From NCBI RefSeq assembly GCF_019457515.1, contig NZ_CP080421.1, positions 1,488,001 through 1,552,000 on the forward strand: a DNA stretch of 64,000 bases, given 5' to 3'. This DNA comes from Shewanella mesophila (GTDB lineage: Bacteria > Pseudomonadota > Gammaproteobacteria > Enterobacterales > Shewanellaceae). A program made the translations under genes and the position numbers. Position 1 is the stretch's first letter. Each line of letters starts with the position of its first letter. The notes under the pieces are model-generated. The model worked only from the letters and a program-made list of their open reading frames with translations, did no database searches and had not been told where the DNA came from. Positions 25,274 to 43,930 of this stretch are shown here, piece by piece.

Positions 25274-27373
25274 TTACAACTTGTAGCTCATGCTCAACAT
25301 GATGAGATGGGCTGTGTAGTCGTGGCTGTTAGCGCCAAAACTCACGACGTTCCAGATCCCATCCGGGGCTATGCTGTTGCCTGGATCGTTGTCTTTGTAG
25401 TTTTCCATCTTGTAATCAAGACGAAGCGCCATTTTTTCAGTTGCCTGATATTGACCATAGACATTGATATTATGCACTTTAGCTGAGTAGTCGCCGTAAT
25501 CGCCGCTGATCCCTTGGGTCACTTGGGTATTACTGCTTGAATCTGAGTAAGTGTAGTCTACGCCTAGGCGCATCTTGTTCTCTAACAGATTGTTATAGCT
25601 AAAGCCGGCACCAATGACATCGACTTGATCTTCTACAACGCCAAACCAGTTAGGTGCACTAAAGTTAGTGCTGCCAGCTTGCTCTGAATCAATATTCTGA
25701 CGATTGTAGAAGGCGTTAACCATCATGTCGTCATTGATTAAGTAGCTAATATTGGCGTCATAACTAAGATCTTTCGATTCAGTTAGACCAATTTGAGTTT
25801 CGTTGTAGTCATCGAGTGCATAGCGCGCACCAAAGTCGATAGTTAACGCATCGATTGGTGTGTGGCTAACGCGAGCCTCAACCATAGTGCGCTTGCGATC
25901 GGCTAAGTTGTACTTGCGTAGCAGGTCATTTGACTCGCTTGAAGTCCATTCAGATGCCTGATACTCAGAACCATCACGCTCACCATAGCTGCCCTTGATC
26001 CACATATCCCAGTTGTTAAATGCACTGATACGGAACTTGGTCCAAAGTGTATTTTCATCTGTAGTTTCACGGTCTTGGTAGCTGCGCTCATCACGACGAT
26101 AGTCGTAACCTGCTTCTAGGTTCATACCACGGCTAAGACGGAAATCAGCGCCCAATTTACCGCGTTGGGTGGTGATATCGTAAGGCGTGTTGTAAGCCAC
26201 TTTTCCGGTTGTTGAGTTAATGCTGATCTGCGTCCATTGTTCAACATTGGTCTTGTTATCACGATCGCTATAGTCGTAGCTGGCGTTTAGGCGCACAGTG
26301 CTATTGATACGCGAGACCACTTTAAGGTTGACGCCATTCATATCGACCTTGCCATCTAATGCTTCGGCAGGGGTTTGATAACCATAACCTGAGGTGACAA
26401 AAGCTTGGTCCTGAGTCATTTGGCCGTAATGCACGCGACCACTCATGATGGTTTTGCCTGCAACATATTGGCCCATCAATGAAACAACATGGGCTTCATT
26501 GTCAGGGTCGAGTGCCATTACGCCTTGAGTTTGCGCGCCAAAGGTTGGATTAAACACATTGTCAAAGGTCAGTTGACTATATTGGTTTTTAAAGCTGGAA
26601 CCTGAATAGTTCAGTGCAGTAAACCAGTTATCGCCTTTTAACTTAACACCCGCTTCAATCGTATCTGTGGTGTAATCAACAGGTTCAGCAAGCATCATCG
26701 ATTGGTTAAAGAAGCTACCAGAGGCTTGTTTAAGGCCCTCTTTGTCTTCACGCTGATAGTTGATGTAAGTGCTCCACAGCTCTTCGGCTTGATATTCAAA
26801 CCCAAGGCCTGCACGTTTGCGTTTAAGCGACAGTTCAGTTGGATTTAAGCTGCTATAAAGCTGGCTCATATCTTGGCTAGAACCTGCAGTTTGCCAGTTG
26901 TTAGGCAGGGTTAAATGATCGCCACTAACGCCTAGATATGGCGTCATGGCACTGTCTGTGTCATAGGTTGCGATTTGACGGTAATTTAGGTTGATCTTGT
27001 ATTGACCTACCTTACCGGTATTCACGTCTAAACGACCATTTTCCATGCCCAGATCTTGGGCTTCTACTGTCGCGCGATAGCCTGATTTGTTGGTGTATCT
27101 GACATCGGCATCGACTTTGCCTGCAAACTCATTTTCGGCGGCAAAAGCATTAGCAGAGTGGATGTCGTTACTGTCATTGTAACCAACACCCACGCCTACT
27201 GTGCCTGATACGCCTGTATCAATAGCGCAGCGCTTACATGCCCACTTATCAAATTTTACTTTGTCAGTATTAGCGTTTTGTACGCCATAGCCATCGGCTA
27301 GAACCATGTTTGGTACAAAAACACTGGCATTAGCGATCAGGGCGAGCGTGACTAAATTTAAGTTGAATTTCAT
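25274..27373 (-). CDS. mtrB: Outer membrane beta-barrel MtrB (MtrB/PioB family)
   Basis: Sheath protein of the MtrCAB porin-cytochrome complex: a 26-strand barrel that holds MtrA and presents MtrC outside. 699 residues, close to the 697 of S. oneidensis MtrB. Signal peptide of about 26 residues (VFVPNMVLADGYG), then the MtrB-typical N-terminal CxxC in FDKWACKRCAID (C46, C49). The rest is a run of alternating polar/hydrophobic strands with aromatic girdles, ending in MLSMSYKL. Third gene of the mtrC-mtrA-mtrB unit, 12 nt after mtrA; a terminator follows. Confidence 0.95.
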   Translation of the reverse strand: MKFNLNLVTLALIANASVFVPNMVLADGYGVQNANTDKVKFDKWACKRCAIDTGVSGTVGVGVGYNDSNDIHSANAFAAENEFAGKVDADVRYTNKSGYRATVEAQDLGMENGRLDVNTGKVGQYKINLNYRQIATYDTDSAMTPYLGVSGDHLTLPNNWQTAGSSQDMSQLYSSLNPTELSLKRKRAGLGFEYQAEELWSTYINYQREDKEGLKQASGSFFNQSMMLAEPVDYTTDTIEAGVKLKGDNWFTALNYSGSSFKNQYSQLTFDNVFNPTFGAQTQGVMALDPDNEAHVVSLMGQYVAGKTIMSGRVHYGQMTQDQAFVTSGYGYQTPAEALDGKVDMNGVNLKVVSRINSTVRLNASYDYSDRDNKTNVEQWTQISINSTTGKVAYNTPYDITTQRGKLGADFRLSRGMNLEAGYDYRRDERSYQDRETTDENTLWTKFRISAFNNWDMWIKGSYGERDGSEYQASEWTSSESNDLLRKYNLADRKRTMVEARVSHTPIDALTIDFGARYALDDYNETQIGLTESKDLSYDANISYLINDDMMVNAFYNRQNIDSEQAGSTNFSAPNWFGVVEDQVDVIGAGFSYNNLLENKMRLGVDYTYSDSSSNTQVTQGISGDYGDYSAKVHNINVYGQYQATEKMALRLDYKMENYKDNDPGNSIAPDGIWNVVSFGANSHDYTAHLIMLSMSYKL

Positions 27374-27385
27374 CTTCTCGTCTCC

Positions 27386-28375
27386 TTAGCGCTGGAATAG
27401 TTTGCCAGATGGATGGTTAGAACCATGGACCTGACTATGACAGTTCAAGCAGCTGCGGCCACCTGTAAAGGCATTACCGCCAACAGTTGAGCCTTGTTCT
27501 GTATTACCCATGTAGGCATTGCTGGCATGGCCATCGCTGGCATGGCATTGCTGGCATAGCTGAGGAGCACGAGTATTTAGCATACCTTCGTTTACGCTGC
27601 CGTGTGGGTTATGACAGGTCACACAGTTTTCAGTGACGGGGGCATGTTCCCATAGCTTTGGGCCGCGTTTTTCAGCATGACATGAGTAGCAAGTTTCATT
27701 TACGCTTGGCTTTACCAAGTCTGAATCTGCCATAGTGCCGTGTGGATTATGACAATCGCTACAGGTCATTTGGTTCCATTTCATTGGATGACTAGAGCGC
27801 TTGTTCATGTCCGCTTTTTGCTTAGTGTGACAGCTAGTACAGACTTCCATCTCAGTGTTTTTTGACAGCACTGGATCTTTTTCCGTATGTACCGAGTGAC
27901 ATGATGCACAGGCAACATCGGCATTGTCGTGATGACCGCCATTCCAAGACATACGCTTATCATCTTGGTGACAACTCATACAGACGCTGTTTTGCTTTTC
28001 TGCTGATAGAGTGGAATCAGGGCCAAAGGTGATCATTGGCTCATTACCACCCTTATTGTGTTTACCCATTGGGCCGTGGCATGACTCACATTGCAGACCC
28101 GCCATTGGGCTATTGCTGGAGTGTGTCGCGCCGTGGACACCTTTAAATAGGTCCATCACTTTTTCTGATTTACCGTGGCACATCAAACAGGTGTCGGCAC
28201 CTTTTGGTGAGTATTGGCCTTCTGCGAACTTTTTGTCCAGGGTGGCTTCTACTTCATCGGGCGTCATTTTTGCGTCCCACTTCGATGCGATAGCACTGTG
28301 GCTTATACCCAAACTAAGCACCGCAGCAGCCATAACGGCTGGGATGAGGCTTTTGAATTTGTTTACGATTTTCAT
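27386..28375 (-). CDS. mtrA: Periplasmic decahaem c-type cytochrome MtrA
   Basis: Electron carrier threaded through MtrB, passing electrons from periplasmic donors (CymA, STC/FccA) to MtrC. Exactly ten CxxCH motifs occur: CLMCH, CESCH, CMSCH, CASCH, CTSCH, CSDCH, CYSCH, CVTCH, CQQCH, CLNCH. No CX3-4CK variant, so ten bis-His haems are expected. Signal peptide with SHSAIAS. About 330 residues, family length. Start set at MKIVNKF (28375), since AGGAAG lies 8 nt before it; the frame extends 16 codons further up. Same DmsE/MtrA family as mtrD at 42803. Confidence 0.95.
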
Positions 28376-28454
28376 AATAGACTTCCTAATTTGCACAAAT
28401 TTTCGAAAAGTAGGGGAGAGCACTCCCCTCGTTTTTCATTTCAAGATGAGCAAA

Positions 28455-30452
28455 TTACATCTTAACCGCAGTGTGATCTTCGATAACAGGAGCATGACAG
28501 TAGAAACAGGTTTCTAACTGAGCAGCATCGTTAGCGACATCTTTTGCACCATTAATGATCGCACCTTGGCTTTCTGCATGGGCTTTAACGCTATCGCTGG
28601 TGTGACATGAAGTACATGTCGCAGTGATAGGTGTAGTGTATAGGCTCTCTTGGCTTGGTGTGTAAGGGTTTATTACTTTAGTTGCTAATGCGCCTTTCAC
28701 TTTGAATGCGTCAAGGTTAAAGTCGTTATGACACTGAGCACAATCTTTGATGATGCCTTGCTCGCCGTGAACCACGTGGAGTTTCATCTCTAACGCACCT
28801 TTATTGGTGCCGCCTGCATAAGTACCGTCTGGTGTATGACAAGCCACACATGCATCAACACCTATGATTGGCATATCGTTAGCATCTTTTGCGTGTGAAA
28901 GCTGCTCAGACATCACGAAACCAGCATGGTGGCTACCTTTGTGGATTTCGAACTCAGGTGTATGACAAGAAGCACAAGCGGTAAAGTTAACAGAGTCAAC
29001 GTGACGCATGCTTGGGGTTTGACCTGATAATGAAGCGAAAGCTAAATCCGCTTTCATCGCGGTGTACTTATCAGCGTCGCCACCGTCAAATGCAGGGTCT
29101 TCGCATTTTACGAATTTGCCAGCTTCTGAACACATAGCCCAACCAACAAAGGTAAAGGCGGTTTCGTTATCAGCACCGGCTTCAGTATTTAGCATAAGCT
29201 CTTTAGTGGTTGTGTAAACTAGCTTACCGTCTTGGATAGTCGCTTTTGCATCCACTACACCGTTCTTAATGGCGTTGATTGAGTCTTTACCGCCGTAGCC
29301 TAAGGTCACATTATTTGGACCCACGTTGGTGACGATTTCAACGCGCTGGATCATTGGCAGAACGTCATTGATATCAACATTTTCGCCAGCAGTATTAACG
29401 ATTTGAATGCTAATGGTCGCTGCTTTAGTTGTTGAATCGATAGTAGACTCAGTTTGGATACCATATTGATCGATCAGTGCTTTTTTCTGAATTGCATTTT
29501 CGCTGTGGATCTCTTCAGTCCAGCTCGCGTTATGACAGGCGACGCAGTTGCTGTTGTCACTTTGCTGTGAGTGGCCTTTACCGGCTTGGAAGTCGATATT
29601 TACGTGACAGCTAGTACAGGTTTCCATGGTTGGAACTCGTGACCAGTTGCCCCACTCTGCAAGATCATCAGATTGTACGTGACAGGCTTGACAGTTGTCT
29701 TGAACGATAGCATGTGCTGTCTCAGCACTCAGTTCCATGTTTGGGCCGTACATTTTTGCATCGTTATGGACGTTATGAACAAGGTGGCTAAAGGCAACTT
29801 GTGGCTTACCTCTGCTATCAGCTAATTCCTGAGTATGACAAGAGATACAAGTTTCGACATTATAGCCGTGATAAATTTCCTGTCCTTCGCCGTGACAGGT
29901 ATTACAGCTGGCGGTGGCGACAATATTCTTTGTATAAAGCGGTGCATAACCTTCGCCAGAGAAATCTTGGGATATCTCGGTACGTGGCACAGTAGTCACA
30001 CCGTCTTGCAGCGTCGCCGCGCTGGCAATTACGTTAAAACGTTGTGTTAGTTCAGGGTTGTAGCCTTCTACCTCGACAGTAAGGCTGTAGTTGCCGTTCT
30101 TGTGGTCAGTAAACGCTTTCTGAGAGCCGATAAATTGCCATTGTGCACTATCGCCTGCACCAGTTGAACCTTGTGGAAGTAACTGAACAGCTTTCTTAAC
30201 TTCAAGCTTTGTTAGGCCAACCACGGGTAGGTCTTCTTCGTTGGTGGCAAATACATTAATGGTTGGTACACCATTGTCATAAGAGACTTTGGTAATATCC
30301 AAGTTTAATGTATCGATATGATCAGCGGCAGAACCACCTGGGTTACCTGGGTTACCGTCATTACCATCGCTGCCGCCACAACCACTAAGAGCCATAGAGA
30401 CTGCACTTGCTGCGAGAAGCAGCGCAAATTTATTATTTCTTATGTTCATCAT
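28455..30452 (-). CDS. mtrC: Surface decahaem lipoprotein MtrC
   Basis: Terminal reductase of the MtrCAB conduit, exposed on the cell surface, transferring electrons to minerals and flavins. Lipobox MALSGC, followed by four collagen-like triplets (GSD GND GNP GNP). Ten CxxCH motifs in two groups of five (about residues 182-306 and 490-655), separated by a beta-rich domain with the CX8C pair CSEAGKFVKC typical of MtrC and MtrF. About 666 residues against 671 in S. oneidensis. Start at MMNIRNN, as GCAGGGAAAAA precedes it; the longer frame to 30476 lacks a binding site. First gene of mtrC-A-B, with a CRP-like site about 165 bp upstream. Confidence 0.93.
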   Translation of the reverse strand: MMNIRNNKFALLLAASAVSMALSGCGGSDGNDGNPGNPGGSAADHIDTLNLDITKVSYDNGVPTINVFATNEEDLPVVGLTKLEVKKAVQLLPQGSTGAGDSAQWQFIGSQKAFTDHKNGNYSLTVEVEGYNPELTQRFNVIASAATLQDGVTTVPRTEISQDFSGEGYAPLYTKNIVATASCNTCHGEGQEIYHGYNVETCISCHTQELADSRGKPQVAFSHLVHNVHNDAKMYGPNMELSAETAHAIVQDNCQACHVQSDDLAEWGNWSRVPTMETCTSCHVNIDFQAGKGHSQQSDNSNCVACHNASWTEEIHSENAIQKKALIDQYGIQTESTIDSTTKAATISIQIVNTAGENVDINDVLPMIQRVEIVTNVGPNNVTLGYGGKDSINAIKNGVVDAKATIQDGKLVYTTTKELMLNTEAGADNETAFTFVGWAMCSEAGKFVKCEDPAFDGGDADKYTAMKADLAFASLSGQTPSMRHVDSVNFTACASCHTPEFEIHKGSHHAGFVMSEQLSHAKDANDMPIIGVDACVACHTPDGTYAGGTNKGALEMKLHVVHGEQGIIKDCAQCHNDFNLDAFKVKGALATKVINPYTPSQESLYTTPITATCTSCHTSDSVKAHAESQGAIINGAKDVANDAAQLETCFYCHAPVIEDHTAVKM

Positions 30453-30613
30453 TTTTTCCCTGCATAGGTTTGGCATCGTCTTAAGTGCATGGACAGTTTT
30501 CTGTTCCGATTCTCATTTATAAGTAGTGCAACCTAAGTCAATGCTGGAAATAGAAATCCCCAAGGAAATGCTAACGTAACAGGCGCCTAAAATCTGCCAA
30601 ACTGGCTCTAATG

Positions 30614-30629
30614 TGTGACCGAGATCTTT
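30614..30629. promoter_or_regulatory. CRP-like site upstream of mtrC
   Basis: TGTGA-CCGAGA-TCTTT: perfect left half, spacer resembling the consensus TCTAGA, weak right half. It lies about 165 bp before the mtrC start, the same distance as the sites before omcA copy 1, the divergent cytochrome and mtrD. Confidence 0.55.
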
Positions 30630-30744
30630 CTATTTCTAAAGGGGTAGTTTATCGAGGTAGGAAAGGCTAATTTAGAATGAAAATCGGCCTATAAATTAAC
30701 CAATTATTTACAATTTGTTTATAAAAATACATTTACTGTTTCTA

Positions 30745-30775
30745 AATAAAAACAAAGGGAGGCAAAGCCTCCCTT
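30745..30775 (-). terminator. Rho-independent terminator after omcA copy 1
   Basis: On the minus strand AAGGGAGGC-TTT-GCCTCCCTT is followed by TGTTTTTATTT. It ends the gene whose stop is at 30829 and isolates it from mtrC. Confidence 0.85.
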
Positions 30776-30828
30776 CGGGAATTAAATTTCAAATAAAGTG
30801 AGTAATACTCACTTTAGGTGATCTTCAA

Positions 30829-33051
30829 TTAATGGCCGTGAAGTGCCATGACTTTCTCTGGCGTATGACAGGTTTGGCAAGTTTCTGCTGCACGAGTACG
30901 TACATCGTCTGCACTTGTACCATCTAAAATACCGCCGTTAGTTTCGATGTGAGATTGACCCGCATCGCTTAAGTGAGCTTGGTGACAACTTAAACATGCA
31001 CCCGCATCTGACGATACCCATATACCTGCACTGTCTTTAGTTTCAAGATTAGGATAGTTCCATACACGATCAGGCGAGCGGCCTAAGGTGATACCATTAT
31101 CGATCCCGTTTCTAGAGTCTTCGGCCGTGTGACAAGTCAAGCAATCTGTCTTCATTACCGTTCCAGATTTAAGCCCGCTGCCCCATTTGGCATTCATATC
31201 ATGCCCTGCTGCATGGTGCGCTTTATAGGCATAGCTGGTAGGGCTATCAAACAGACCTGAACTACGAACAGATTCTTTAACTGACTTATCTGAAGTGTGA
31301 CAAGTTTGGCAGTTGTAGTCGTTATTGTAGTGGTGGTTCTCTTGGTTATGACAACCTTGACACTTAGTTGGGTCAATGATGTCACGGCGAGAAGCCGCTT
31401 TAGCAGTATCGTCTACAGCACCGTCTTTCCAGACGAAATGTAGCGGAGCATCTTTGGCTTCAATTTTACGCACACCGTCGGTAGCACAAGCCGTTAGTTC
31501 AATGTCCGCAACGCCGTATCCACCATTGTTGAAACACACTTTTAGTGCTGACCACAACTCAAATGTTTTACCATTAGCATCGGCTGGTACATCAAATTTA
31601 GTGCCCGTTAATGTGTAGGTTTTGGTTGCCGCATCATAGACACCCTCTTTTAGGGCAATACGACGATTGCTATAAGAGGCTTCGCTGTATGCAGGGAAAT
31701 CTTTATCGACATCCCATGCTACGACAACACGTGAGCTTGGGTCTAAGAACTCGCCGTCAATGGCTGCGCCATTTTGGTCAAGTACTTGTACGTTGAACAC
31801 GAATTTACCGTTTGCATCAACGCCGATGTCGCTGAATTTCACGCTCATCTCACGAGCTTCGTTGTAAGCTTTCAGTACATCGCCGTGACGTTTGAATGCA
31901 CTACCTGTTCCGCCGTAAGGTTCAGTACTGTTGTGACATGCGACACAATCAGTGCTGCCATGATGCGCTGATGGTTTTTCGCTATGACAACCGATACAAG
32001 CCGTGTTGCTTAGATCTGCTTTGAACAAATCAGCATTGGCAGGTGCGTTAGCCCCTTCAACGTGACATGAACTACAGTCAGCAGCAGGCTTTTGTGGGAA
32101 CATCACCTTGCCATAGTCGTGAACGCCGCCGCCATAGCCGATAACTTTGTAAGGTGCTGGCACTTCGACGCCATCGGCATCATAAGTGTGGCGCTCATTT
32201 CCTCTATGGATCGCATGGATCATGTAGGTAAAGTCGACACTGTTACCCGTCTCAGGGTCGCCAGATGTTGCCGTATGGCATGAGGCGCAATTTTCGATAT
32301 TAATGCGTCGACCGCCATGTAAAGCAAGGCTTTCTGGTTGGTGACAGGTGTAACAGGCTTCGATTGAAACCACATCACGAGTCTGAATATCTTCAGTTTT
32401 ACCCGTTGAAGGTTGGAAATCGTAATTGGCGTTCGCGGTTACGTTAGGTTGCTCAAGCTCTAAGGTAATACGCTGAGTGGCATCGGCATCATAGGTGATG
32501 GTCAGTGGTGTCGTCACTTGGGCAATATTAGTCTGGAATGTGTAGCTGTAGCTACCATCTTGATTATCGACCAAACAGTCATCACATTTTGAAGCTTGCT
32601 CAACGTTGGCTTGATATTGAGTCGATGGGGTAATATCGGTTTCACCCTCAGGAACCCAACTTGGGTTTGGTGCTTTTTCAGCATTAATATAGGCTTGCCA
32701 TTGGAAACCGCGATCAGCTTCAACGGCTGCCTCACCTTCGCCTGTGGTTTCAACTACGTGAGTTAATTGTGCAATGCCAAATCTTAAGTCGTGATCTTTG
32801 GTGAGACCGAGAACGGCGACGCCGTTAGCATCTTGAAGCGTAAAATCGACTTTTACCGTGCCAGCATCAATGCTTGCATTGGTAAATGTTGCTTTTAGGC
32901 TGGCGGTTGAGTCAATATTGACACCAATAACACCATCTTTTCCATCTTCACCATTTTTTCCGTCGCTGCCGCAACCTGATATGGCTAAAGAGAGAAGCCC
33001 TGCACCTAATACGGCTTTTGTCGCCGCATTAAAATTGAACTTTTTCATCAT
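30829..33051 (-). CDS. omcA: Surface decahaem lipoprotein OmcA (copy 1)
   Basis: Outer-membrane lipoprotein that works with MtrC in reduction of Fe(III)/Mn(IV) oxides and flavins. Lipobox SLAISGC, then Gly-X-Y triplets (GSD GKN GED GKD GVI). Ten CxxCH motifs, five around residues 234-370 (CYTCH, CASCH, CSSCH, CIGCH, CVACH) and five around 563-727 (CQGCH, CQTCH, CLTCH, CLSCH, CQTCH). A CX15C pair lies in the middle domain (CFNNGGYGVADIELTAC), and CDDC in the first domain. About 741 residues (OmcA of S. oneidensis 735). The C-terminal segment reads CHTPEK, so the hydroxyl-rich T-P-S mineral-binding motif reported for OmcA is not kept. MMKKFN start, with CAGGGAA upstream. Own promoter and terminator. 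Confidence 0.9.
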   Translation of the reverse strand: MMKKFNFNAATKAVLGAGLLSLAISGCGSDGKNGEDGKDGVIGVNIDSTASLKATFTNASIDAGTVKVDFTLQDANGVAVLGLTKDHDLRFGIAQLTHVVETTGEGEAAVEADRGFQWQAYINAEKAPNPSWVPEGETDITPSTQYQANVEQASKCDDCLVDNQDGSYSYTFQTNIAQVTTPLTITYDADATQRITLELEQPNVTANANYDFQPSTGKTEDIQTRDVVSIEACYTCHQPESLALHGGRRINIENCASCHTATSGDPETGNSVDFTYMIHAIHRGNERHTYDADGVEVPAPYKVIGYGGGVHDYGKVMFPQKPAADCSSCHVEGANAPANADLFKADLSNTACIGCHSEKPSAHHGSTDCVACHNSTEPYGGTGSAFKRHGDVLKAYNEAREMSVKFSDIGVDANGKFVFNVQVLDQNGAAIDGEFLDPSSRVVVAWDVDKDFPAYSEASYSNRRIALKEGVYDAATKTYTLTGTKFDVPADANGKTFELWSALKVCFNNGGYGVADIELTACATDGVRKIEAKDAPLHFVWKDGAVDDTAKAASRRDIIDPTKCQGCHNQENHHYNNDYNCQTCHTSDKSVKESVRSSGLFDSPTSYAYKAHHAAGHDMNAKWGSGLKSGTVMKTDCLTCHTAEDSRNGIDNGITLGRSPDRVWNYPNLETKDSAGIWVSSDAGACLSCHQAHLSDAGQSHIETNGGILDGTSADDVRTRAAETCQTCHTPEKVMALHGH

Positions 33052-33232
33052 GATTATTCCCTGCAATAGTTTTAATCATCACTTGTCGGTTATTTAAGTT
33101 ATTTAACACGTTCTCAAATGAGAACAGTTGTCGTTTGTAGTCTTTAAAAACAACCATTTAGTGTGTGGAATTTATTTCCACTTACAAGGCTATCGAAACA
33201 ACCGCTTTTTGGCAGTTGTTTCAGTGTGCTTA

Positions 33233-33248
33233 TGTGATTGAGATCTGA
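33233..33248. promoter_or_regulatory. CRP-like site upstream of omcA copy 1
   Basis: TGTGA-TTGAGA-TCTGA: perfect left half and T, C and A kept in the right half. About 180 bp before the start codon. Shares GTGA-N4-GATC with the mtrC and divergent-cytochrome sites. Confidence 0.55.
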
Positions 33249-33410
33249 CTATTTCTTTAGAGGTAGTGAAAAAGGCGCTTTTTTTGTGCAATTTTAATTT
33301 TTACTTAAGGAAACTCACTCTTAAGCCCTGTTAGATGTTGCTTTTTTGTATACATTTTTCGGCATATGATAATGGAGTTGAAATAGTTAAGTGGGTTTGT
33401 ACAAAGCCGC

Positions 33411-33446
33411 AAATAAAAAGAGTGGAAAGGGTTGCTTTCCACTCTT
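33411..33446 (-). terminator. Rho-independent terminator after the divergent decahaem gene
   Basis: Minus strand AAGAGTGGAAA-GCAACCC-TTTCCACTCTT then TTTATTT; a perfect 11-bp stem 29 nt after the stop codon. Confidence 0.88.
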
Positions 33447-35749: not shown

Positions 35750-36310
35750 TTTTCCCCTGCATGAGAGTGAGATCTATCTTTTTAGTATGGTTAAGGCAGA
35801 TCTAAGTAACTGCTATTGCTTCAATTGCTTAGTTTTACCTTACTGGGATATTACCCAAAAGAGGTAGTAGGTTGAGAGTTAGTCTGTTCAAACGTGAACC
35901 AGATCGAGTGAGCCAGTAACGAGTGTGTACTTAGTGTTAAATTGCTTTTAAAACAATTGATTATATTGGCGTTATCAATGCATTATCATCAGGTTGAATA
36001 GGTAAAAGTGATGTATCTGAATTAGAGCTTAATAATTGAAAGGGATTTTTAATGGATACTTGATCTCAAACAAGGTTTGTTGCGTATTTTGAGATGCACA
36101 AACTACAGGGATCCTTGTGTATGTTTCTGGTTGGTTATCGATAAAGGTTTTTTTGTTTACCGTTGTGTTGTGATTTGGTTTTCTGATTGCTCCTTAAACT
36201 GTATTTGATGATGTCGTGGTACCTACGGATAGCACTAACACATAATCGCAATGACATTAGGCACGCTTAATGCTGTATTTTTAGTCTTAAATTAATCACA
36301 GCTAAATTGA
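35750..36310. other. Long upstream region of the divergent cytochrome
   Basis: Together with the repeat and terminator that follow, this is the longest gene-free gap in the cytochrome locus (35750-36486). It holds the CRP-like site at 35893-35908; the rest is AT-rich and shows no open frame I can support. Confidence 0.45.
35893..35908. promoter_or_regulatory. CRP-like site upstream of the divergent decahaem gene
   Basis: CGTGA-ACCAGA-TCGAG, about 150 bp before the start. Weaker than its relatives but keeps GTGA-N4-GATC at the same position. Confidence 0.4.
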
Positions 36311-36412
36311 GGCCAGTCAGTATAAAAAGTGAGCTGATTGGCGTGTTTTTTGGACATTAATTCAAGGTGAATGGTTACTCCTTTGCGAGGGCTATTCACC
36401 GTAGGAATAAGG
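36311..36412. repeat. Intergenic repeat, partial copy
   Basis: The segment CAGTATAAAAAGTGA, then GCGTGTTTTTTGG, TTAATTCAAGG, GAATGGTTACTC and TTGCGAGGG, aligns in the same order with the left part of the repeat at 63575-63976, allowing a 13-base gap. It lies downstream of omcA copy 2, beside the terminator at 36418. Confidence 0.55.
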
Positions 36413-36417
36413 CGTTA

Positions 36418-36455
36418 GATGTAAAGAGAGAAGTTATCGCTTCCCTCTTTACATC
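36418..36455 (-). terminator. Long inverted repeat after omcA copy 2
   Basis: GATGTAAAGAG..GAAG / CTTC..CTCTTTACATC: 15 paired bases with one mismatch around TTATCG, 31 nt after the omcA copy 2 stop. No clean T run follows on the minus strand, but its position fits a terminator. Confidence 0.65.
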
Positions 36456-36486
36456 TCGATCAGAAATGCCGCATAAATAATGGCAT

Positions 36487-38646
36487 TTAGTTGCCGTGTA
36501 TACTCATTAGCTGTGCAGGAGTATGGCAAGTAGAGCAGGTTTCGGCCGCGCGTGTCCTGACATCATCAGCATCCATTCCATCGACAATTCCACCATTGGC
36601 AGCGATATGACTTGCGCCCGCCTCACTGAGGTATTTCTGGTGACAACTTAAGCAGGCTCCAGCATCTGAAGATACCCAAATATCGCTACCTGTAGTGGTA
36701 TCGCCATATCGCCAAACGCGATCACTTGCTCTACCTAATTGAATACCATTTTTAACGCCGTCGTCGGTGTGGCATGTGGTGCAGTCGGTTTTCAACACTG
36801 TGCCCGATTGAACCCCTGCATACTTAAGATAATGACCTTGTGCTTCATGAGCCTTGAAAGCAAAGCTGGTGGGTTTGCGGCCTCCTGGGTAATCGCTATC
36901 ACGGCTCGTGGTTTTATCTGGGGTATGGCAAGTTTGGCAGTTATAACCATTGTTGTAGTGATGGTTTTCCTGATTGTGGCAGCTCTGACATTTTGCGCTA
37001 TCGATGATGGGACGTCGCTGCGCTATTGACGCTTCTGGATCTACGCCAGTGCCAGACCACACGAAGCGATAGGGGGCATCTTTGACCTCAATAGAACGTG
37101 TGGTGTCAGAGCACTCTGTCATAACAACGTCTGCAACACCATAACCACCATTATTGAAGCAGACTTCAACGGCTGACCATAGCTCAAAGGTTTTACCCGT
37201 TGCATTGGCTGGCATATTGAATGTACCTGCTACAATCGTAAAGGTCTTAGTGGCTGCATCATAAGCCCCATCAGAAAGTCTGAATCGACGTTGGTTGTAT
37301 GACGCGTCGCTATAGGCCGGATAATCTTTATCGATATCCCAGGCCACGACGATTCGAGTGCCTTGCTCTATGAACTCGGCGCCGATGGCTGTACCAGTCG
37401 CATCTGTAAATTGCACATCGAACATGAGTTTATCATTCGCATCTAGCCCAATGTTGCTAAATGTCACGCTCATCGACTCTGCGAGCTTGTAAGCTTTTAG
37501 TACTTCGCCGTGGCGCTTTTCTGCACTACCCGTACCAGGATAGGTATCGGTTGAGTTGTGGCACGACATACAGTTTGTGCTACTGTGATTTTGCGATGGT
37601 TTTTCGCTGTGGCATGCGATACAGGCGTTATTACTTAAATCGGCTTTAAACAGATCGGCATTACTGGGTGCTCCACTTCCTTCGACATGGCATGAAGCGC
37701 AATCGGCAGCAGGCTTTTGTGGGAACATCACCTTGCCGTAATCGTGTAGACTACCTCCATACCCCACTATCTTATAAGGCGCAGGAACATAACCATCTGC
37801 GGTACTGGTTTGTCTATCTTGGCCTTTATGGATGGCGTGGATCATGTAGCTAAATTCGATGCTATTGCCACTTTCTGGATCGCCAGATGTTGCGGTATGA
37901 CAACTGGCGCAGTTTTCCAACGCTATCCTTCTGCCACCATGGAGTGCAAGGCTTTCTGGCTGGTGACAGGTATAACATGCATCAATGCTCACCACATTGC
38001 GAGTTTGAATGTCCTCCGTTGCACCTGAAGAGGGTTGCCAGTCACGATGAGCGTTGGCGGTCGCTTGGGGTAATTTTAGCTCTAAAGTGACCCGCTGGGT
38101 GTTGTCAGCACTGTAGTTGATAGTAAGAGGTTCGGTGACATTGGCTATATTTCGTTGGAAGGAATAAGTGTAACTGCCATCTAGGTTATCCGTTAGGCAG
38201 TCATCACAAGCGCTGGCCGCTTCGACATTGGCTTGGTATTGCGCTGATGGATTGAGACCTGTTTTATCATCGGGGAGCGAACCGGGTTGTTTCAGTGTAT
38301 TAATATAGGCTTGCCACTGGAAACCCCGATTAAACTCTTGGTTATCTATGGTTTCCGTGACGGGAGTGAGTTGAGCGATACCAAAGCGAAGATCATAATC
38401 TTTGGTTAGCCCTAAAACAGCAACGCCATTGGCATTTTCTAATTTGAAGGTGACAGAAACGGTGCCGTTATCTACCGATGCTGCTGTAAATTCGGCCATG
38501 ATGCTTGATGTGGTGTCAATATTGACGCCGATAGGGCCATCGGGACCATCTTCGCCATCTTTACCATCGCTTCCGCAGCCGAAAAGGAGCGCGCTGCATG
38601 TCAGTGCTACTATGCTCCAAGCGGTACCTTTTGTTCTTATATCCAT
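36487..38646 (-). CDS. omcA: Surface decahaem lipoprotein OmcA (copy 2)
   Basis: A second OmcA, 719 residues, close in sequence to copy 1 through all haem segments (CYTCHQPESLALHGGRRI, FPQKPAADCASCHVEG, CQSCHNQENHHYNN, SDAGACLSCHQ). Lipobox ALLFGC and triplets GSD GKD GED GPD GPI. Ten CxxCH motifs in two fives (about residues 224-358 and 553-703). Middle pair CFNNGGYGVADVVMTEC (CX15C); CDDC in the first domain. The C-terminus ends CHTPAQLMSIHGN: again no T-P-S triad. Only 75 bp behind mtrF with a T-less hairpin between, so it is probably read through from mtrDEF, unlike copy 1, which has its own regulatory region. Confidence 0.9.
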   Translation of the reverse strand: MDIRTKGTAWSIVALTCSALLFGCGSDGKDGEDGPDGPIGVNIDTTSSIMAEFTAASVDNGTVSVTFKLENANGVAVLGLTKDYDLRFGIAQLTPVTETIDNQEFNRGFQWQAYINTLKQPGSLPDDKTGLNPSAQYQANVEAASACDDCLTDNLDGSYTYSFQRNIANVTEPLTINYSADNTQRVTLELKLPQATANAHRDWQPSSGATEDIQTRNVVSIDACYTCHQPESLALHGGRRIALENCASCHTATSGDPESGNSIEFSYMIHAIHKGQDRQTSTADGYVPAPYKIVGYGGSLHDYGKVMFPQKPAADCASCHVEGSGAPSNADLFKADLSNNACIACHSEKPSQNHSSTNCMSCHNSTDTYPGTGSAEKRHGEVLKAYKLAESMSVTFSNIGLDANDKLMFDVQFTDATGTAIGAEFIEQGTRIVVAWDIDKDYPAYSDASYNQRRFRLSDGAYDAATKTFTIVAGTFNMPANATGKTFELWSAVEVCFNNGGYGVADVVMTECSDTTRSIEVKDAPYRFVWSGTGVDPEASIAQRRPIIDSAKCQSCHNQENHHYNNGYNCQTCHTPDKTTSRDSDYPGGRKPTSFAFKAHEAQGHYLKYAGVQSGTVLKTDCTTCHTDDGVKNGIQLGRASDRVWRYGDTTTGSDIWVSSDAGACLSCHQKYLSEAGASHIAANGGIVDGMDADDVRTRAAETCSTCHTPAQLMSIHGN

Positions 38647-38691
38647 AATAGTGATTTCCCTATTAATGCATTTGATAACCGTGTGAGGCTC

Positions 38692-38713
38692 GCGCTAGAG
38701 TTGAATCTAGCGC
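38692..38713. other. Hairpin in the mtrF-omcA gap
   Basis: GCGCTAGA-GTTGAA-TCTAGCGC, a perfect 8-bp stem 8 nt after the mtrF stop. There is no T run on the minus strand, so an RNA-processing or partial-termination element is more likely than a full terminator. Confidence 0.55.
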
Positions 38714-38721
38714 AATGGTCA

Positions 38722-40644
38722 CTATTCTATTGGGTGAACTTTTAATACATCTGTCGGAGCGCCCTGACCATGGCAGGTAGTACAGCTTTCAGTACCCGAT
38801 GTGGCATCAGAGAGTGTACCCATAAACACGGCTCCTTGTTGGATCATGTGGTTCTTAGTCGTATCGCCGTCGTGACAATCACTACAGATGGCAGCCGTTG
38901 GACTCGTGTATAACTCGCCAGAAATAGCCAGTGGTTTCACGCCCGCAGAAAGCGGCAGTGCCACAGTGGCAATCCCATTATCTTGAGCATGACACTGAGA
39001 GCAGTTACCAATCTCACCAGGGTAATTGGTTGATTCATAACCTTCTCGATTGCCACTATGAATGCTATGGATTAAATGCTTAAAGTCGGCAGTGGCCGTT
39101 GATGGATTGTCGGTTGCATCGGCGACCATATTCGGGTTGTGACAAATCTGACACTGTCCCGCTAAGTCATTACGTGAACCATGGAAGTTGAGTTGTTGAT
39201 CGCCATGACAGCTGCCACAGGTTTCGTTAGTGACAACGACTCGGCGTCCGCTGTCAGAAAGCGATTGGGAACTGAAAAATTGATGGCTCGACTTGATAGG
39301 GACTTCGCTATTACCTTCGTTGCTGCAGTCTCCCAATAGGCCTTCTGAAGCGCAAATCTTGCCTTGGATCGCTAAGGTGCCTTTATCCATCTCGCTTCCC
39401 ATAGGTACGGTAACGCCTGCAATTTGGTAGCTATAACTTCCCGCACTGCCAGAGAGGGGAGTGACTTCTTGGAGTTTTATTGATTTAGGCGAGCGGGTGG
39501 CATAGTCGAAACTGGTGCCCCAATTGGCGTAGACTCGCAGATCAGAGATGAAACTCAATTTATCGGCACTGTTGGTGTAGATTTCACCTGAACTTGGATT
39601 TTGCAAGGTGACAGTAAATGAGACTGTGTCACCCGATAAGGATGCGGCGCTGATCTGTGGTTGGAACTGGGCTAATGCTTTGTCATTGCCTCCATCATTG
39701 TGGACGCTGGCTGTCCAGTCGGCGTTATGACAGGCAACACAATTAGCGTTATTTGCCTGGGTTGGATGACCTTCACCCGCTTTGAAATCGATACGAGTAT
39801 GGCATGAGCCACAGGTTTCCATGGTTGGTACTCTAGCCCAATTTAGCTGCTCTGATAATGTTTCATCTTCGGTGTGGCAGGTTTGACAATTTGCCAAGGA
39901 ACCTGGAAATCCAGTTAAATGTTTACCATGGATCATCTGCGGGAAAATATTATCAGGGTTACTCACGTGATCGGCGTTGTGGCAGGTGACGCAGGTCTCA
40001 ACCTGATTATATCTACTGCGGTGGAAAGCCAAGTTGTTATGACAGGTGTTACAGCTTGCTACCTTGATAATATTGCGGGTGTAGACAGGAGCTGTGCTTT
40101 GGCCATTCTCAGGTGCTTGCCAATCAAAATGCTGATTAGTGACGGGTAACTGGGTACCATCAGGCAGGCTATCTCCACCGACTTTGACGACGATGCGTTG
40201 GGTGGCTCCGGCCTCATAGCTGACCTCATTCATGCCGTTAAATGCCGCGCTAAAAGTATAGCTATAGTTGCCGTTCTTGTGGTCTAGGTACTCTCCTGGG
40301 CAACTAGTCGCACAGGTTTCCGAGGTGAAATATTGCCATTGTGAGCTGTCACCAGCGTTGGTATAGCCTTGAGGGAGTAACTGGGCTGCGATAAATGTAC
40401 TCGTTGCCACGCCAACCACGGGCTCATCATCTTGATTGGTTATCCGGTAATTCACCTTTGCTATACCATCTTGCATAGCGACCTCATCAAATGAGATCTG
40501 CAGTGTGCTAATATCCATCGCTGGTGGGCCACCTGGCTCGCCTGGATTTCCAGGGGTGCCATCATCGCCCCCACAGCCACTGAGCAAGATAGCAAGTCCT
40601 ATAGCGGCCCCGTAATATGTTTTGTTTGTCATCTTTTTCATCAT
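38722..40644 (-). CDS. mtrF: Surface decahaem lipoprotein MtrF
   Basis: Paralogue of MtrC that forms the MtrDEF conduit. 640 residues against 639 in S. oneidensis. Lipobox ILLSGC, then GDD GTP GNP GEP collagen-like triplets. Ten CxxCH motifs in two fives (about residues 198-303 and 473-623): CNTCH, CVTCH, CQTCH, CGSCH, CVACH, CGSCH, CQICH, CSQCH, CSDCH, CTTCH. Middle-domain CX8C pair CASEGLLGDC as in MtrC; a CX3C pair (CATSC) lies in the first domain. GGAAGAG binding site. 32 nt behind mtrE. Confidence 0.93.
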   Translation of the reverse strand: MMKKMTNKTYYGAAIGLAILLSGCGGDDGTPGNPGEPGGPPAMDISTLQISFDEVAMQDGIAKVNYRITNQDDEPVVGVATSTFIAAQLLPQGYTNAGDSSQWQYFTSETCATSCPGEYLDHKNGNYSYTFSAAFNGMNEVSYEAGATQRIVVKVGGDSLPDGTQLPVTNQHFDWQAPENGQSTAPVYTRNIIKVASCNTCHNNLAFHRSRYNQVETCVTCHNADHVSNPDNIFPQMIHGKHLTGFPGSLANCQTCHTEDETLSEQLNWARVPTMETCGSCHTRIDFKAGEGHPTQANNANCVACHNADWTASVHNDGGNDKALAQFQPQISAASLSGDTVSFTVTLQNPSSGEIYTNSADKLSFISDLRVYANWGTSFDYATRSPKSIKLQEVTPLSGSAGSYSYQIAGVTVPMGSEMDKGTLAIQGKICASEGLLGDCSNEGNSEVPIKSSHQFFSSQSLSDSGRRVVVTNETCGSCHGDQQLNFHGSRNDLAGQCQICHNPNMVADATDNPSTATADFKHLIHSIHSGNREGYESTNYPGEIGNCSQCHAQDNGIATVALPLSAGVKPLAISGELYTSPTAAICSDCHDGDTTKNHMIQQGAVFMGTLSDATSGTESCTTCHGQGAPTDVLKVHPIE

Positions 40645-40676
40645 CTCTTCCTTGGCATTTTGGTGATTGGCATCAG

Positions 40677-42788
40677 TTAGAGTTGATAACTCAATGTCAG
40701 TCCAAAGTAGTGGGCACCGTAGTCGTGGCTTAAGTCTCCAAAACTCAGCACGTTGGGCAAGGTATCAAGGGTTAATCCTTGATTTGCCCAATCGGCGTCT
40801 TGGTATTGCTCATATATCCAATCGAATCGCAGGCCTACGCGCTCACTGACTCGATAATCAGCAAAGGCGTTAATGTTATGTTTGGTTGAGAAGTCGCTGC
40901 CGTAAGGAGAGCGCAATCCTTGGACGACTTGGGTATCACTTTGGCCATCGGCATAGGTATAATCTAGGCCGAGATTGAGTTTTTTATCCATTAAGTTGGC
41001 GTAATTGATACCGGCACCAATGAGTGTGGATTGCTCTTCTGAGCTTGAATACCAATTGGGCGTTGCATAATTACTACTGCCAGCTTGATCGCTATCTCGC
41101 CAATCTTGGTTCAAAAAGGCATTGAGATTGAGATTATCGTTAATAGTGTATTGCGCTGACAGGTCATAGCCTTGGGTTTCTACATTTGTAAGCCCAATGA
41201 GAGTGTCTGTGTAATCGTCTTGCATCCAATGTGCATTTGCACTGATGTTGTAGCTGTCGCCTGAATAACTCGTGTACAAGGCATAGCGTTGGCGTTCTCT
41301 ATCGGCCAAATAGCTTTTTCTAAGTAGTGGGTTACTCGGACTCGATGTGGTATTTACCGCTTGATAGCTGCTGCCTGAACGGTCACTGGCTTGGGCTTTT
41401 AGCCACAGTTGCCATTGTGATGAAACCCGATAGTTAAATTTACCAAATAGGGTTAACTCTTGAAGGCTCTGTCGGTCTAAATCGCTGTAGTTATTATGAT
41501 CATATTCATAACCTACATCGATATAGGCGGCAGGTGCGATGCGATATTTTGCTGCTATATTTACCTGCTGCTTGGTTCTGTCGTATTCGGGGTTGGCTGC
41601 ATTTCCTGCGTAGTAGCTGTCGGTAACAATTTGTGGATAGCTATTGATCTCAGTTTTGTTATCGCGGTCGCGATAGTCATAGCTTGCTCTAAGCGATAAT
41701 TCTCGAGTGATTCGCCCAGAGTAGTTCAGTTTCATCTCAATAATATCGACTTGGCCATCTAAGTTAGCACTGGGCAACATTGGTGAAGGGCCATTGATGG
41801 TCGCTGGCAGATAAGCCTGATCTTGGGTCATGCGAGTAAACCCAATATGCATTAACACTTGCTGGCCAGCGTCTGAAAATTGCGTACTGCCTGCAATTCG
41901 ATAGGCTTTGTTGTCTGGCGCTACCGAACTTTGTCCAAAATAGGCTGCACCAAAGGTTGGGGTGAAAGCGGACTGCCAGTGGAGTGATTGTTCATCGTTA
42001 CTGTAATGACTCAATCCGGCATCTATGCCCGCTAACCAATTGTCACCGCTAAGATATAACTTAGCGTTGAGCTCATCGGTCGAATCATCGATGCGCTGGG
42101 CAAGCATGGTACTGTTTGTCAGCAGATTAGCACTGGCGGTACGTTGGCCTTGGCGCTGTTCATGCTGGTAATCAATCTCAGCCTTATAGAAGTCACCGCG
42201 ATAAGCACCATTTAGTCGATAGCGATCTCTGGCTATCTTTAATTCTGTCGCTACGCTGCTGGCGTTAAGTTCGCTCATTTGCGCTGTTGTCGCCCCCGCT
42301 TGCCATTGCTGGGGTAATTGCCAACGACCATTTTGGGTTGTATAGGGAGTTAATGCCTGATTGGTATCATAGTGCGTAATGCCGCGATAAGCGGCTGTAA
42401 TAGCATATTGTCCAGGTTTGCCAGTGGTGAGAGCGGCAGAGCCGTTTTCATAACCTAATTTATCAGCTTTGAATCTTGTTCTATAACCTGTTTCATTTTG
42501 GTGCGTAACATTGGCTTCAAGACTGGCGACGACGCCATCCTTGTCTGTTCCTGTGGTATTGCCAAAACGACTATCTTCGCCATCATTATGGGCTGCACCT
42601 ATGCCTATCTGACCATGAGTGCCAGTGGTGACAGCGCAGCGCTGGCATTTCCAACCGTCTAGCTTTAATGAGTCTCGGTTTGCCGACGAGATACCATATC
42701 CTTCGCTGTAAGCCATGGTGCTAATAATGGCGAATGCTAGGGTGCTAAGGCGAAGCGGTAGCCTATTGTGTCGATTGTGATTATTCAT
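40677..42788 (-). CDS. mtrE: Outer membrane beta-barrel MtrE (MtrB/PioB family)
   Basis: Barrel partner of MtrD and MtrF, 703 residues. Signal peptide of about 28 residues ending TMAYSEGYG, then GWKCQRCAVT with the CxxC (C48, C51) at the same place as in MtrB. The body follows MtrB in strand pattern (SYDYRDRDNKTEI, LLRKSYLADRERQRY, GLDYTYADGQSDTQVVQG have direct counterparts in MtrB) and ends GLTLSYQL. 14 nt behind mtrD; AGGGAG binding site. Confidence 0.93.
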   Translation of the reverse strand: MNNHNRHNRLPLRLSTLAFAIISTMAYSEGYGISSANRDSLKLDGWKCQRCAVTTGTHGQIGIGAAHNDGEDSRFGNTTGTDKDGVVASLEANVTHQNETGYRTRFKADKLGYENGSAALTTGKPGQYAITAAYRGITHYDTNQALTPYTTQNGRWQLPQQWQAGATTAQMSELNASSVATELKIARDRYRLNGAYRGDFYKAEIDYQHEQRQGQRTASANLLTNSTMLAQRIDDSTDELNAKLYLSGDNWLAGIDAGLSHYSNDEQSLHWQSAFTPTFGAAYFGQSSVAPDNKAYRIAGSTQFSDAGQQVLMHIGFTRMTQDQAYLPATINGPSPMLPSANLDGQVDIIEMKLNYSGRITRELSLRASYDYRDRDNKTEINSYPQIVTDSYYAGNAANPEYDRTKQQVNIAAKYRIAPAAYIDVGYEYDHNNYSDLDRQSLQELTLFGKFNYRVSSQWQLWLKAQASDRSGSSYQAVNTTSSPSNPLLRKSYLADRERQRYALYTSYSGDSYNISANAHWMQDDYTDTLIGLTNVETQGYDLSAQYTINDNLNLNAFLNQDWRDSDQAGSSNYATPNWYSSSEEQSTLIGAGINYANLMDKKLNLGLDYTYADGQSDTQVVQGLRSPYGSDFSTKHNINAFADYRVSERVGLRFDWIYEQYQDADWANQGLTLDTLPNVLSFGDLSHDYGAHYFGLTLSYQL

Positions 42789-42802
42789 GCTAATGCTCCC
42801 TA

Positions 42803-43771
42803 TTAACGCTGTAATAATTTGCCGGATGGATGGTTAGAACCGTGAACTTGGTTGTGGCAGTTCATGCAACTCTGACCGGCATTAAATGCGTTTGGAGTAT
42901 TGCCAAAGACGGCATTGGAGGTGTGTCCATCTGAGGCGTGGCATTGCTGGCATAATTGTGGTGGCTTAGCGATCAACATAGCTTCGTTGACGCTACCGTG
43001 GGGATTGTGGCAATTGGCACAGTTATCTGTGACTGGAGCATGTTCCCACAGTTTAGGGCCGCGTTTTTCTGCGTGGCAGGCGTAGCAGTTTTCGTTGACG
43101 CTCATCTGCTTAAGGCTTGAGTCATTTAGGCTGCCGTGGGGATTGTGGCAGTCGCTACAGGTCATCTGTTGCCATTGCATAGGATGCGCGCTGCGTTTAT
43201 GCAGATCGGCTTTTTGTTGAGTATGACAAGTGGTACACACGTTGACCTCTTGGGTCTTGTCTAAAATGGGATCGTGTCCTGTGTGCACTTGATGGCAGTC
43301 ACTACAGGCAACATCGGCAGTATCGTGATGATTTCCATCCCATGCCATCCGCTTATCATCGTTGTGACAGCTCATACATACACTGTTTTGTTTGAAGGCT
43401 GGAACGGGGGAGTTGGCCCCAAAGGTGATCATAGGTTCCTTGCCCCCTTTGTTATGCTTGCCCATGGGACCGTGGCAAGCTTCACACTGCAGATCTGCCA
43501 TTGGTGAGCCTTTGATCTGAGCATTGCCATGAACACCATCAAATAGTGCCATAACGGTTTGGCTTTTCTTGTGACACATTAGGCAGGTGTCTGCGCCTTT
43601 TGGGGAGTATTGCCCTTGTGCGAATTTTTCATCGAGGATCTGTTCAACCTCTTTTGCTGGGGTTTTATCCCATGGAGTTGCTATTACTGTGATGCTAAAT
43701 AGCAGTGATGTAGTTAATAAACCAACTGTTTTAATTTGGTTTATTAAGAAAGTAGAATCCATTTTCATCAT
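42803..43771 (-). CDS. mtrD: Periplasmic decahaem c-type cytochrome MtrD
   Basis: MtrA paralogue, about 322 residues. Ten CxxCH motifs: CLMCH, CEACH, CMSCH, CSDCH, CTTCH, CSDCH, CYACH, CANCH, CQQCH, CMNCH. Signal peptide with [10 protein letters not shown]. Much of the haem core is identical to MtrA ([42 protein letters not shown]-like end). First gene of mtrD-E-F; a strong CRP-like site lies about 165 bp upstream in the region shared with divergent feoA. Start at MMKMDST (43771), since GGACGGAA precedes it. Confidence 0.93.
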
Positions 43772-43930
43772 TTTCCGTCCCAAGCACGTTACGCTAGTTT
43801 TTAATTGTTGTTATTAATTAATGACTAATTTACCAAACTTAGATAATAGGCTGAAAATGTGATCTATGTGTGAAAATAATGTTGTCGATTTGCTTTGGTT
43901 ACTTAAGTTTTTTAAGGAATTAGCACAAAA

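Follow-up and report, generated by a model that had tools for sequence, protein, structure and literature searches.

The mtr island of Shewanella mesophila lies at positions 25274 to 43783 of a 64,000-nucleotide stretch of DNA (here the window; positions 1,488,001 to 1,552,000 of contig NZ_CP080421.1, assembly GCF_019457515.1), where two conduits, MtrCAB and MtrDEF, would feed three accessory surface cytochromes encoded between them. In the direction of transcription, on the minus strand, the genes read mtrD, mtrE, mtrF, omcA, mtrG, omcA, mtrC, mtrA and mtrB, with feoB divergent and upstream of mtrD, and the three accessory positions are counted as slots 1 to 3 from mtrF towards mtrC. Comparison across the genus makes it very probable that such islands consist of three slots, each with a fixed upstream region, leader and terminator, in which the mature cytochrome has been repeatedly exchanged by homologous recombination among Shewanella. 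The swapping of accessory cytochromes during evolution, with retention of upstream region, leader and terminator, is strongly supported by the sequence comparisons set out below.

The survey took in 129 Shewanella genomes (one per species, that of the window included), 120 of them with a TIGR03507 match and 120 with an MtrB match at E 1e-100. The regions of 117 relatives were read together with the window (118 genomes, in stretches of up to 20 kb, some of them cut by contig ends), anchored on MtrB except in G091 and G078; outside this reading stayed G111, G097 and G022, with partial or distant MtrB matches, and eight of the nine genomes lacking an MtrB match, the ninth, G078, being included for its cytochrome. 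The locus of G091 is cut short where its contig stops, that of G026 straddles the start of the record and so entered as two parts, and the cluster of G034, distributed over two contigs, was counted as three-slot from its mtrDEF side. Among the relatives named below we take G064 to be S. oneidensis MR-1, G052 to be S. loihica PV-4, G067 to be S. piezotolerans WP3, G019 to be S. colwelliana ATCC 39565 and G086 to be Shewanella sp. UCD-KL21. Upon alignment and tree building, all but two of 374 large multihaem proteins fell into seven clades, MtrC (112), MtrF (64), OmcA (100), MtrH (37), MtrG (19), the eleven-haem UndA (24) and a ten-haem sister of UndA (16), the two outsiders being the G078 protein and a distant paralogue of the window genome. 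The names MtrG and MtrH were assigned by comparison with the references in the accessible part of PMC8805035 (S. piezotolerans MtrH, S. loihica MtrG); G067 has genes of both clades, that of MtrH being in slot 3, so telling the two names apart depends on G052 as well, which has an MtrG-clade and no MtrH-clade gene.

Five surface cytochromes (mtrDEF, three accessory genes and mtrCAB) are present in 33 of the 129 genomes, window included. This layout is thus common in the genus and the content of the window not exceptional, so that the rarity implied by an earlier sequence-only reading falls away. That reading had named an arrangement both common and functionally redundant as grounds for refutation, and the first half of this has come true. 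The accessory content OmcA-MtrG-OmcA occurs in exactly three of the 33, the window, G052 and G040, which share the order mtrDEF-OmcA-MtrG-OmcA-mtrCAB; the accessory proteins of the latter two are 78-81% identical to those of the window, while the gap between slots 1 and 2 measures 737 bp in the window versus 482 bp. S. oneidensis MR-1 (G064) resembles the window in both conduits, gene order, the feoB neighbour and an OmcA with a slot-3-type leader beside mtrC, but, as the sequence-only reading had contrasted correctly, its mtrDEF-omcA-mtrCAB locus has one accessory cytochrome versus three, which in the window include an OmcA close behind mtrF and MtrG. As up to five family members per cluster (0-5; PMC8805035), omcA expansion in four species (PMC6048853) and mtrDEF-omcA-mtrH-mtrCAB in S. 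algae (PMC5357785) are already reported in the accessible parts of these papers, the window's content belongs to a known kind.

The classes of accessory cytochrome are not freely ordered between mtrF and mtrC. Among the 33 three-slot clusters slot 1 holds OmcA (21), the ten-haem UndA sister (11) or UndA (1), slot 2 MtrG (17) or UndA (16), and slot 3 MtrH (19), OmcA (13) or UndA (1). The order 'OmcA or UndA sister, then MtrG or UndA, then MtrH or OmcA' is kept in 32 of 33 clusters, compared with a mean of 6.5 and a maximum of 16 in 20,000 rounds of gene shuffling within clusters, a control that overstates independence because the clusters are related, and kinship is addressed by the rpoB tree below. 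All eight slot-class combinations occur. The available text of PMC8805035 states that there are, beyond some limits on which class may stand alone, no rules for combinations, which agrees with independent slots, and the clades recovered here belong to the set it describes; slots defined by position, whose leaders and terminators stay fixed, do not appear in the main-text portions accessible, where positions in three-gene clusters are undiscussed, although supplementary figures may show them. Neither the slot rule nor exchange from leader to terminator was found in the literature searched, which comprised accessible text without subscription papers or supplementary figures. G073 was left out of slot counts and tree as its slot-1 cytochrome gene is in two overlapping pieces; this broken accessory gene suggests that slot 1 can be lost.

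While the mature protein follows the class, the leader follows the slot. The comparison was anchored on the lipobox cysteine and covered 98 of the 99 genes of the 33 clusters (the slot-2 UndA of G068, with a late-starting open reading frame (ORF) and no lipobox found, was left out, as were the MtrC of G025 and the MtrF of G082 from the leader table). Identity of the 72-bp leader DNA is 0.652 for the same slot and another class (797 pairs) versus 0.489 for another slot and the same class (296 pairs), and the 200 bp upstream of the leader behave alike (0.636 versus 0.486), but for the mature protein the relation is reversed (0.324 versus 0.614; 150 sampled pairs each). The leader is nearer to that of the same slot in all 51 genes for which both comparisons exist. 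From the 72-bp leader alone, with its own genome excluded, the slot is called correctly for 97 of 98 genes, and still for 87 of 98 after removal of all same-class references (slot 3 32/33, slot 2 30/32, slot 1 25/33). Lone accessory genes in loci where no mtrDEF was seen carry a slot-3-type leader in 49 of 52 cases whatever their class (OmcA, MtrH, UndA, UndA sister, MtrG), the call having a margin as small as 0.01 for at least one of them (G092). Of the 14 first genes of two-slot clusters, 10 are called slot 1, and where OmcA is the only intact gene between mtrF and mtrC (n=16, including G073 with its broken slot 1 and G091 at its contig end) the leader is of slot 3 in 15 and of slot 1 in G091. 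The leader of the window's own slot-3 omcA agrees in 71 of its 72 bases with that of MtrH in G019.

Spacing and putative terminators delimit the same units. In three-slot clusters the slot-1 ORF starts 3-133 bp after mtrF, whereas 228-926 bp lie ahead of slots 2 and 3 (ORF starts were called mechanically, and the value of 926 bp stems from the late-starting ORF of G068). Terminator-like hairpins within 110 bp past the stop codon follow slot 1 in 31, slot 2 in 30 and slot 3 in 31 of 33 clusters, compared with 5 of 64 mtrF and 35 of 111 mtrC genes, and with 0 or 1 per group in mononucleotide shuffles; the window is among the two clusters whose slot-1 gene lacks a hairpin above the score used. 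The eight slot-3 hairpins displayed, four behind OmcA and four behind MtrH, have the same GGGAGGC/GCCTCCC stem. From spacing and hairpins, slots 2 and 3 look like separate transcription units, whereas slot 1, closely behind mtrF and as a rule without a terminator between, is probably a fourth cistron of mtrDEF, as it probably is in the window. In MR-1-type clusters the lone omcA lies 230-233 bp from mtrF (288 in G047). The separate CRP-dependent promoters of omcA and mtrC in MR-1, with CRP binding upstream of each, described in the accessible text of PMC4417206, fit slot-3 omcA as a unit of its own.

How often the slots changed was read from an rpoB tree of 60 genomes, selected from the 128 in which rpoB was matched so that all three-slot and all two-slot clusters were represented. 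On this tree the 33 clusters require a minimum of 5 changes at slot 1, 5 at slot 2 and 11 at slot 3, numbers that do not fall when nodes below 0.8 support are collapsed (with G073 kept they are 6, 6 and 11). For slot 3 the fit to the tree does not exceed that of shuffled labels, which need 11.3 changes on average, a share of 0.547 of the shuffles needing as few as observed or fewer. The sister of the window is G074, followed by G007 and G019, and since all three carry MtrH beside mtrC, the slot-3 OmcA of the window is most simply a replacement; most likely, judging from the tree, MtrH was lost and OmcA gained after the split from the sister species. Similarly, G101, with OmcA, has an MtrH-bearing sister, G048, with 98.9% identical rpoB and 99% identical MtrB, yet the nearest relative of its slot-3 OmcA is only 80% identical and resides in a species with an rpoB identity of 0.876; G001 is similar, the MtrB of both being 98-99% identical to those of MtrH-bearing sisters and their nearest slot-3 OmcA being found in distant species. 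Within MtrH, the proteins of G034 and G088 differ by 12% and the MtrB by 1%. These patterns bear the marks of replacement by recombination.

A mosaic look without horizontal exchange would also arise if an ancestor had carried several accessory genes per slot in tandem, with similar leaders, of which deletions left one. Deletion between similar leaders would likewise leave a kept upstream region in front of a different mature gene, and few events would be needed at slots 1 and 2, which fit the rpoB tree more closely than did all of 1,000 shuffles. However, in none of the 118 genomes did the stretches read contain more than three accessory genes, slot 3 demands its at least eleven changes as if labels were shuffled, and the slot-3 OmcA of G101 and G001 have their nearest kin in distant species despite the near-identical MtrB of the sisters, all of which renders this scenario unlikely.

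Edges of homology were sought in blastn blocks between selected pairs of near relatives that hold different classes (seven pairs for slot 3, three for slot 2 and two for slot 1), with one permissive scoring, which may stretch block ends, and a second, stricter one. In all seven slot-3 pairs homology extends at least 338 bp upstream of the lipobox Cys codon, ends 13-176 bp past this codon and resumes 16-54 bp after the stop codon, and the interval between the two edges contains no block that reaches 100 bp. The three slot-2 pairs likewise have the 5' edge, with a 3' edge 51-198 bp after the stop codon. Among the four same-class controls homology is unbroken in three, and G065/G102 lacks it over approximately 350 bp near the 3' end. 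With the stricter scoring the leader blocks of G048/G101 and G001/G098 are 98% identical over 342 and 354 bases, respectively, with flanking blocks at 92-95%, and G052/G057, included only in the stricter comparison of eight pairs, shows a single match of 68 bp, 75% identical, within the stretch that is unmatched elsewhere. Between the window and G074, homology takes in the slot-3 upstream region and leader and begins again inside the slot-3 hairpin (Table 1).

These edges also bear on the idea that selection for shared regulation and export, and not descent, keeps leaders and upstream regions of a slot alike without any recombination. Signal peptides and promoters are constrained, and the CRP binding upstream of omcA and mtrC in MR-1 (PMC4417206, as far as accessible) is in line with this idea, but identity of upstream and leader DNA across classes reaches or exceeds that of the flanking backbone and falls abruptly inside the coding region, with the same picture at the terminator side, so that selection alone is a very improbable cause. 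Least credible of all is a recent omcA duplication within the window lineage, which the wording of the sequence-only reading and the omcA expansion in the pan-genome paper PMC6048853 would suggest: the locus does hold two OmcA-clade genes, 67% identical as proteins, but leaders and upstream regions differ by slot and the duplication is rejected by the OmcA tree, which places the two genes in separate lineages, each with support of 1.0, the slot-1 gene in a clade of 27 without any slot-3 member (21 that come first in three-slot clusters, five that do so in two-slot clusters, and that of G091, where the contig stops) and the slot-3 gene with those of G040 and G052.

For the slot exchange by recombination the following course is proposed. 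DNA from the same slot of another Shewanella would enter and recombine homologously, with the conserved stretches of upstream region plus leader on one side and of terminator plus next upstream region on the other acting as the two arms. The sequences show that slots 2 and 3 each possess an extended upstream region, a lipoprotein leader typical of the slot and a hairpin resembling a terminator, and that the mature cytochrome between leader and hairpin is the exchangeable part. As the arms are the conserved flanks, the incoming cytochrome would inherit expression and export of the slot at once.

Several observations weigh against this explanation or narrow it. Both slot-1 pairs show a 5' edge only, without a 3' arm within 400 bp of the stop codon (for G088/G098 homology resumes approximately 430 bp after the stop with the stricter blastn), and eight of the 11 leader calls that fail upon removal of same-class references concern slot 1. 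Because slots 1 and 2 agree with the species tree, fewer changes fall to them and these date further back, and the rpoB tree is a single gene. A second group of six first-position OmcA (G005, G008, G017, G018, G043, G128) branches apart, which gives slot-1 OmcA at least two origins; the first-gene OmcA of G005, G017, G018 and G043 are called slot 2 by 0.02, yet they lie 17-68 bp behind mtrF. The other three of the 52 lone genes are called slot 2, with margins of 0.01. G103, with UndA in slots 1 and 3, breaks the slot rule, and the lone slot of loci in which mtrDEF was not seen accepts UndA, its ten-haem sister and, once, MtrG as well, hence slot 3 is not limited to two classes. With one genome per species neither a donor nor ongoing exchange was seen, and the interpretation is drawn from sequence.

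Between the conduits, no exchange of surface subunits was seen. PMC8805035 reports, in the part available, that MtrF always stands after mtrDE and MtrC always before mtrAB; in line with this, MtrF follows mtrE in every locus parsed here and MtrC precedes mtrA wherever both are readable (G066 has no called mtrA, and a record or contig end interrupts the loci of G026 and G034). The exchange of surface subunits on two conduits envisaged by the sequence-only reading is thus not seen between the conduits but holds for the accessory subunits over evolution, in a form which that reading had not recognised, as leaders, breakpoints and tree indicate. The gene inventory of that reading was borne out, with nine uninterrupted minus-strand ORFs (Table 1), exactly ten CXXCH motifs in each of seven proteins and none in the two MtrB-type barrels, and five surface decahaem lipoproteins, all with TIGR03507 and PF22113 matches and a lipobox cysteine; the two extra genes are indeed a second omcA, by membership in the OmcA clade, and a divergent decahaem gene of the MtrG clade. 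Profile searches match both barrels to TIGR03509/PF11854 and both MtrA-type proteins to TIGR03508, so that an MtrB/PioB barrel with an adjoining MtrA-type decahaem protein and an OmcA/MtrC-type surface cytochrome is found twice. The slot-1 and slot-3 proteins are OmcA by PF22112, a match to PDB 4lmh, the clade, ten haems and the lipobox. Full-length family matches and ten haem motifs in seven adjacent genes make chance an untenable source of these calls. Protein identity is 37% for MtrC/MtrF, 69% for MtrA/MtrD and 40% for MtrB/MtrE. The slot-3 omcA ORF as called begins with TTG, and an ATG 15 bases in is the likelier start.

Table 1. Genes and slot elements of the mtr island, in window coordinates
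Feature	Coordinates	Strand	Evidence
mtrB, outer-membrane barrel of the MtrCAB conduit, 699 aa	25274..27373	-	TIGR03509 709.9 bits, PF11854 793.5 bits
mtrA, periplasmic decahaem cytochrome, 345 aa, 10 CXXCH	27386..28423	-	TIGR03508 337.6 bits, CXXCH count
mtrC, conduit surface decahaem lipoprotein, 673 aa; lipobox Cys codon 30378-30380	28455..30476	-	TIGR03507 342.1 bits, MtrC clade of 112, lipobox
slot-3 intrinsic-terminator-like hairpin	30753..30777	-	hairpin and T-run; G074 homology resumes at ~30775
slot-3 omcA, decahaem lipoprotein	30829..33066	-	PF22112 7.7e-87, PDB OmcA 4lmh, OmcA tree (slot-3 lineage)
slot-3 upstream region and putative export leader (Cys codon 32971-32973)	32939..33320	-	80% DNA identity with G074; mature genes there OmcA (window) versus MtrH (G074)
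slot-2 intrinsic-terminator-like hairpin	33418..33446	-	12-pair stem and T-run
slot-2 mtrG, divergent decahaem lipoprotein, 757 aa	33476..35749	-	clade of 19, support 1.0; 10 CXXCH; 64-90% identity to ten named Shewanella homologues
737-bp gap, slot 1 to slot 2	35750..36486	-	~207 bases near the mtrG end match the pre-mtrG gap of G057 and G074 at 62-64%
slot-1 omcA, decahaem lipoprotein, 719 aa	36487..38646	-	PF22112 5e-76; 75 bp after mtrF; OmcA tree apart from slot-3 genes
mtrF, second-conduit surface decahaem lipoprotein, 640 aa	38722..40644	-	PF22118, PF22111, MtrF clade of 64
mtrE, second outer-membrane barrel, 703 aa	40677..42788	-	TIGR03509 626.1 bits
mtrD, second periplasmic decahaem cytochrome, 326 aa, 10 CXXCH	42803..43783	-	TIGR03508 325.1 bits, CXXCH count

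The divergent decahaem protein of slot 2 can by inference be named MtrG, a clade named in PMC8805035. It groups in the 19-member clade with the slot-2 gene of G052, taken here as S. loihica, the species whose WP_011866320.1 typifies MtrG, and has the family marks of ten CXXCH motifs and a lipobox, LVGC. Its TIGR03507 score of 185 bits is below the cut-off of 209.3, with PF22113 at 2.5e-38 and a PDB OmcA match at 1.2e-32, and its identity to the other four surface cytochromes is 29-35% (31-35% to the two OmcA). For the four-domain fold with staggered-cross haems that typifies MtrG, the AlphaFold2 model is a poor guide (mean pLDDT 47.6), with OmcA, UndA and MtrC as best PDB matches (E 2.4e-16 to 7.6e-11) at a TM score of only ~0.2. 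According to the available part of PMC8805035 MtrG is never found beside mtrCAB without mtrDEF; contrary to this statement, G086 has MtrG directly before mtrC with no mtrDEF seen in the 19.9 kb read, behind a slot-3-like leader (0.69 versus 0.64).

The 737-bp gap before mtrG does not appear to conceal a gene. Three forward frames compared with the ORFs of the relatives' mtr regions gave no protein match at E 1e-2, and DNA matches at E 1e-4 were confined to a few relatives and the gap's own hairpin, so that a hidden gene or remnant was rejected. Over positions 22000-48000 no Rfam match reached the gathering threshold, and a sigma-70 scan stayed at chance level (28 found versus 33.1 in shuffles). 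Matches to the CRP consensus with up to two mismatches number 52 versus 31.9 expected, but as 28 of these fall within the seven cytochrome genes, where we think that haem-motif codons on the opposite strand mimic half-sites, nothing is concluded for CRP; two one-mismatch matches lie between mtrD and feoB. Carriage of slot-3 OmcA on plasmids was rejected as tblastn against 72,556 plasmid records, from which records near the window's genome were possibly left out, gave no match.

Beyond mtrB a CdaR-type regulator (PF05651, PF13556) is encoded at 23978-25132, and the ORFs at 16498-19106 presumably encode a glycerate kinase and a permease, judged on their first residues; together these are probably a unit unrelated to mtr. 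The window genome, a single contig of 4,323,583 bases, has a sixth decahaem protein of the OmcA/MtrC family near contig position 3283827, far from the mtr locus, which branches outside all seven clades. It may be the SO_1659-like gene called mtrF-2 in PMC5357785. G078, for its part, possesses a divergent porin-cytochrome cluster (MtrB ~23%, MtrA ~42% identical) whose surface protein has the best TIGR03507 score of the genus search, 609 bits, without an MtrB match at E 1e-100.

With respect to function, MtrC and MtrF would hand electrons to the accessory proteins on the cell surface. PMC12304082 describes electron transfer from domains III-IV of MtrC to OmcA. The cysteine pair of domain III, a redox-linked flavin switch according to the accessible text of PMC4486940, is kept in all seven clades, spaced from CX8C to CX22C among the commonest patterns, the only ones listed, with one of 64 MtrF lacking it; a cysteine pair before the first haem is also usual except in MtrC, where 81 of 112 are without it. 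In all 19 members of the MtrG clade the domain-I and domain-III pairs of the family are present, with CX5C preceding the first haem and CX15-22C lying between haems 5 and 6, and as the cysteine pairs are kept, MtrG is plausible as a flavin-regulated surface reductase. It is also plausible, as the sequence-only reading proposed, that the accessory cytochromes are specialised for different acceptors or redox ranges.

While the locus content by itself is ordinary for the genus, we lean towards viewing the mtr island as a natural exchange platform, which offers three sockets with preset expression, export and termination, so that the acceptor range of Shewanella may evolve by plug-in replacement with the conduits fixed, comparable to the swapping of surface antigens. 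A swap would alter which minerals, shuttles or surfaces are met and leave the conduits unchanged, and the slot edges would be natural junctions for swapping surface cytochromes in laboratory strains.

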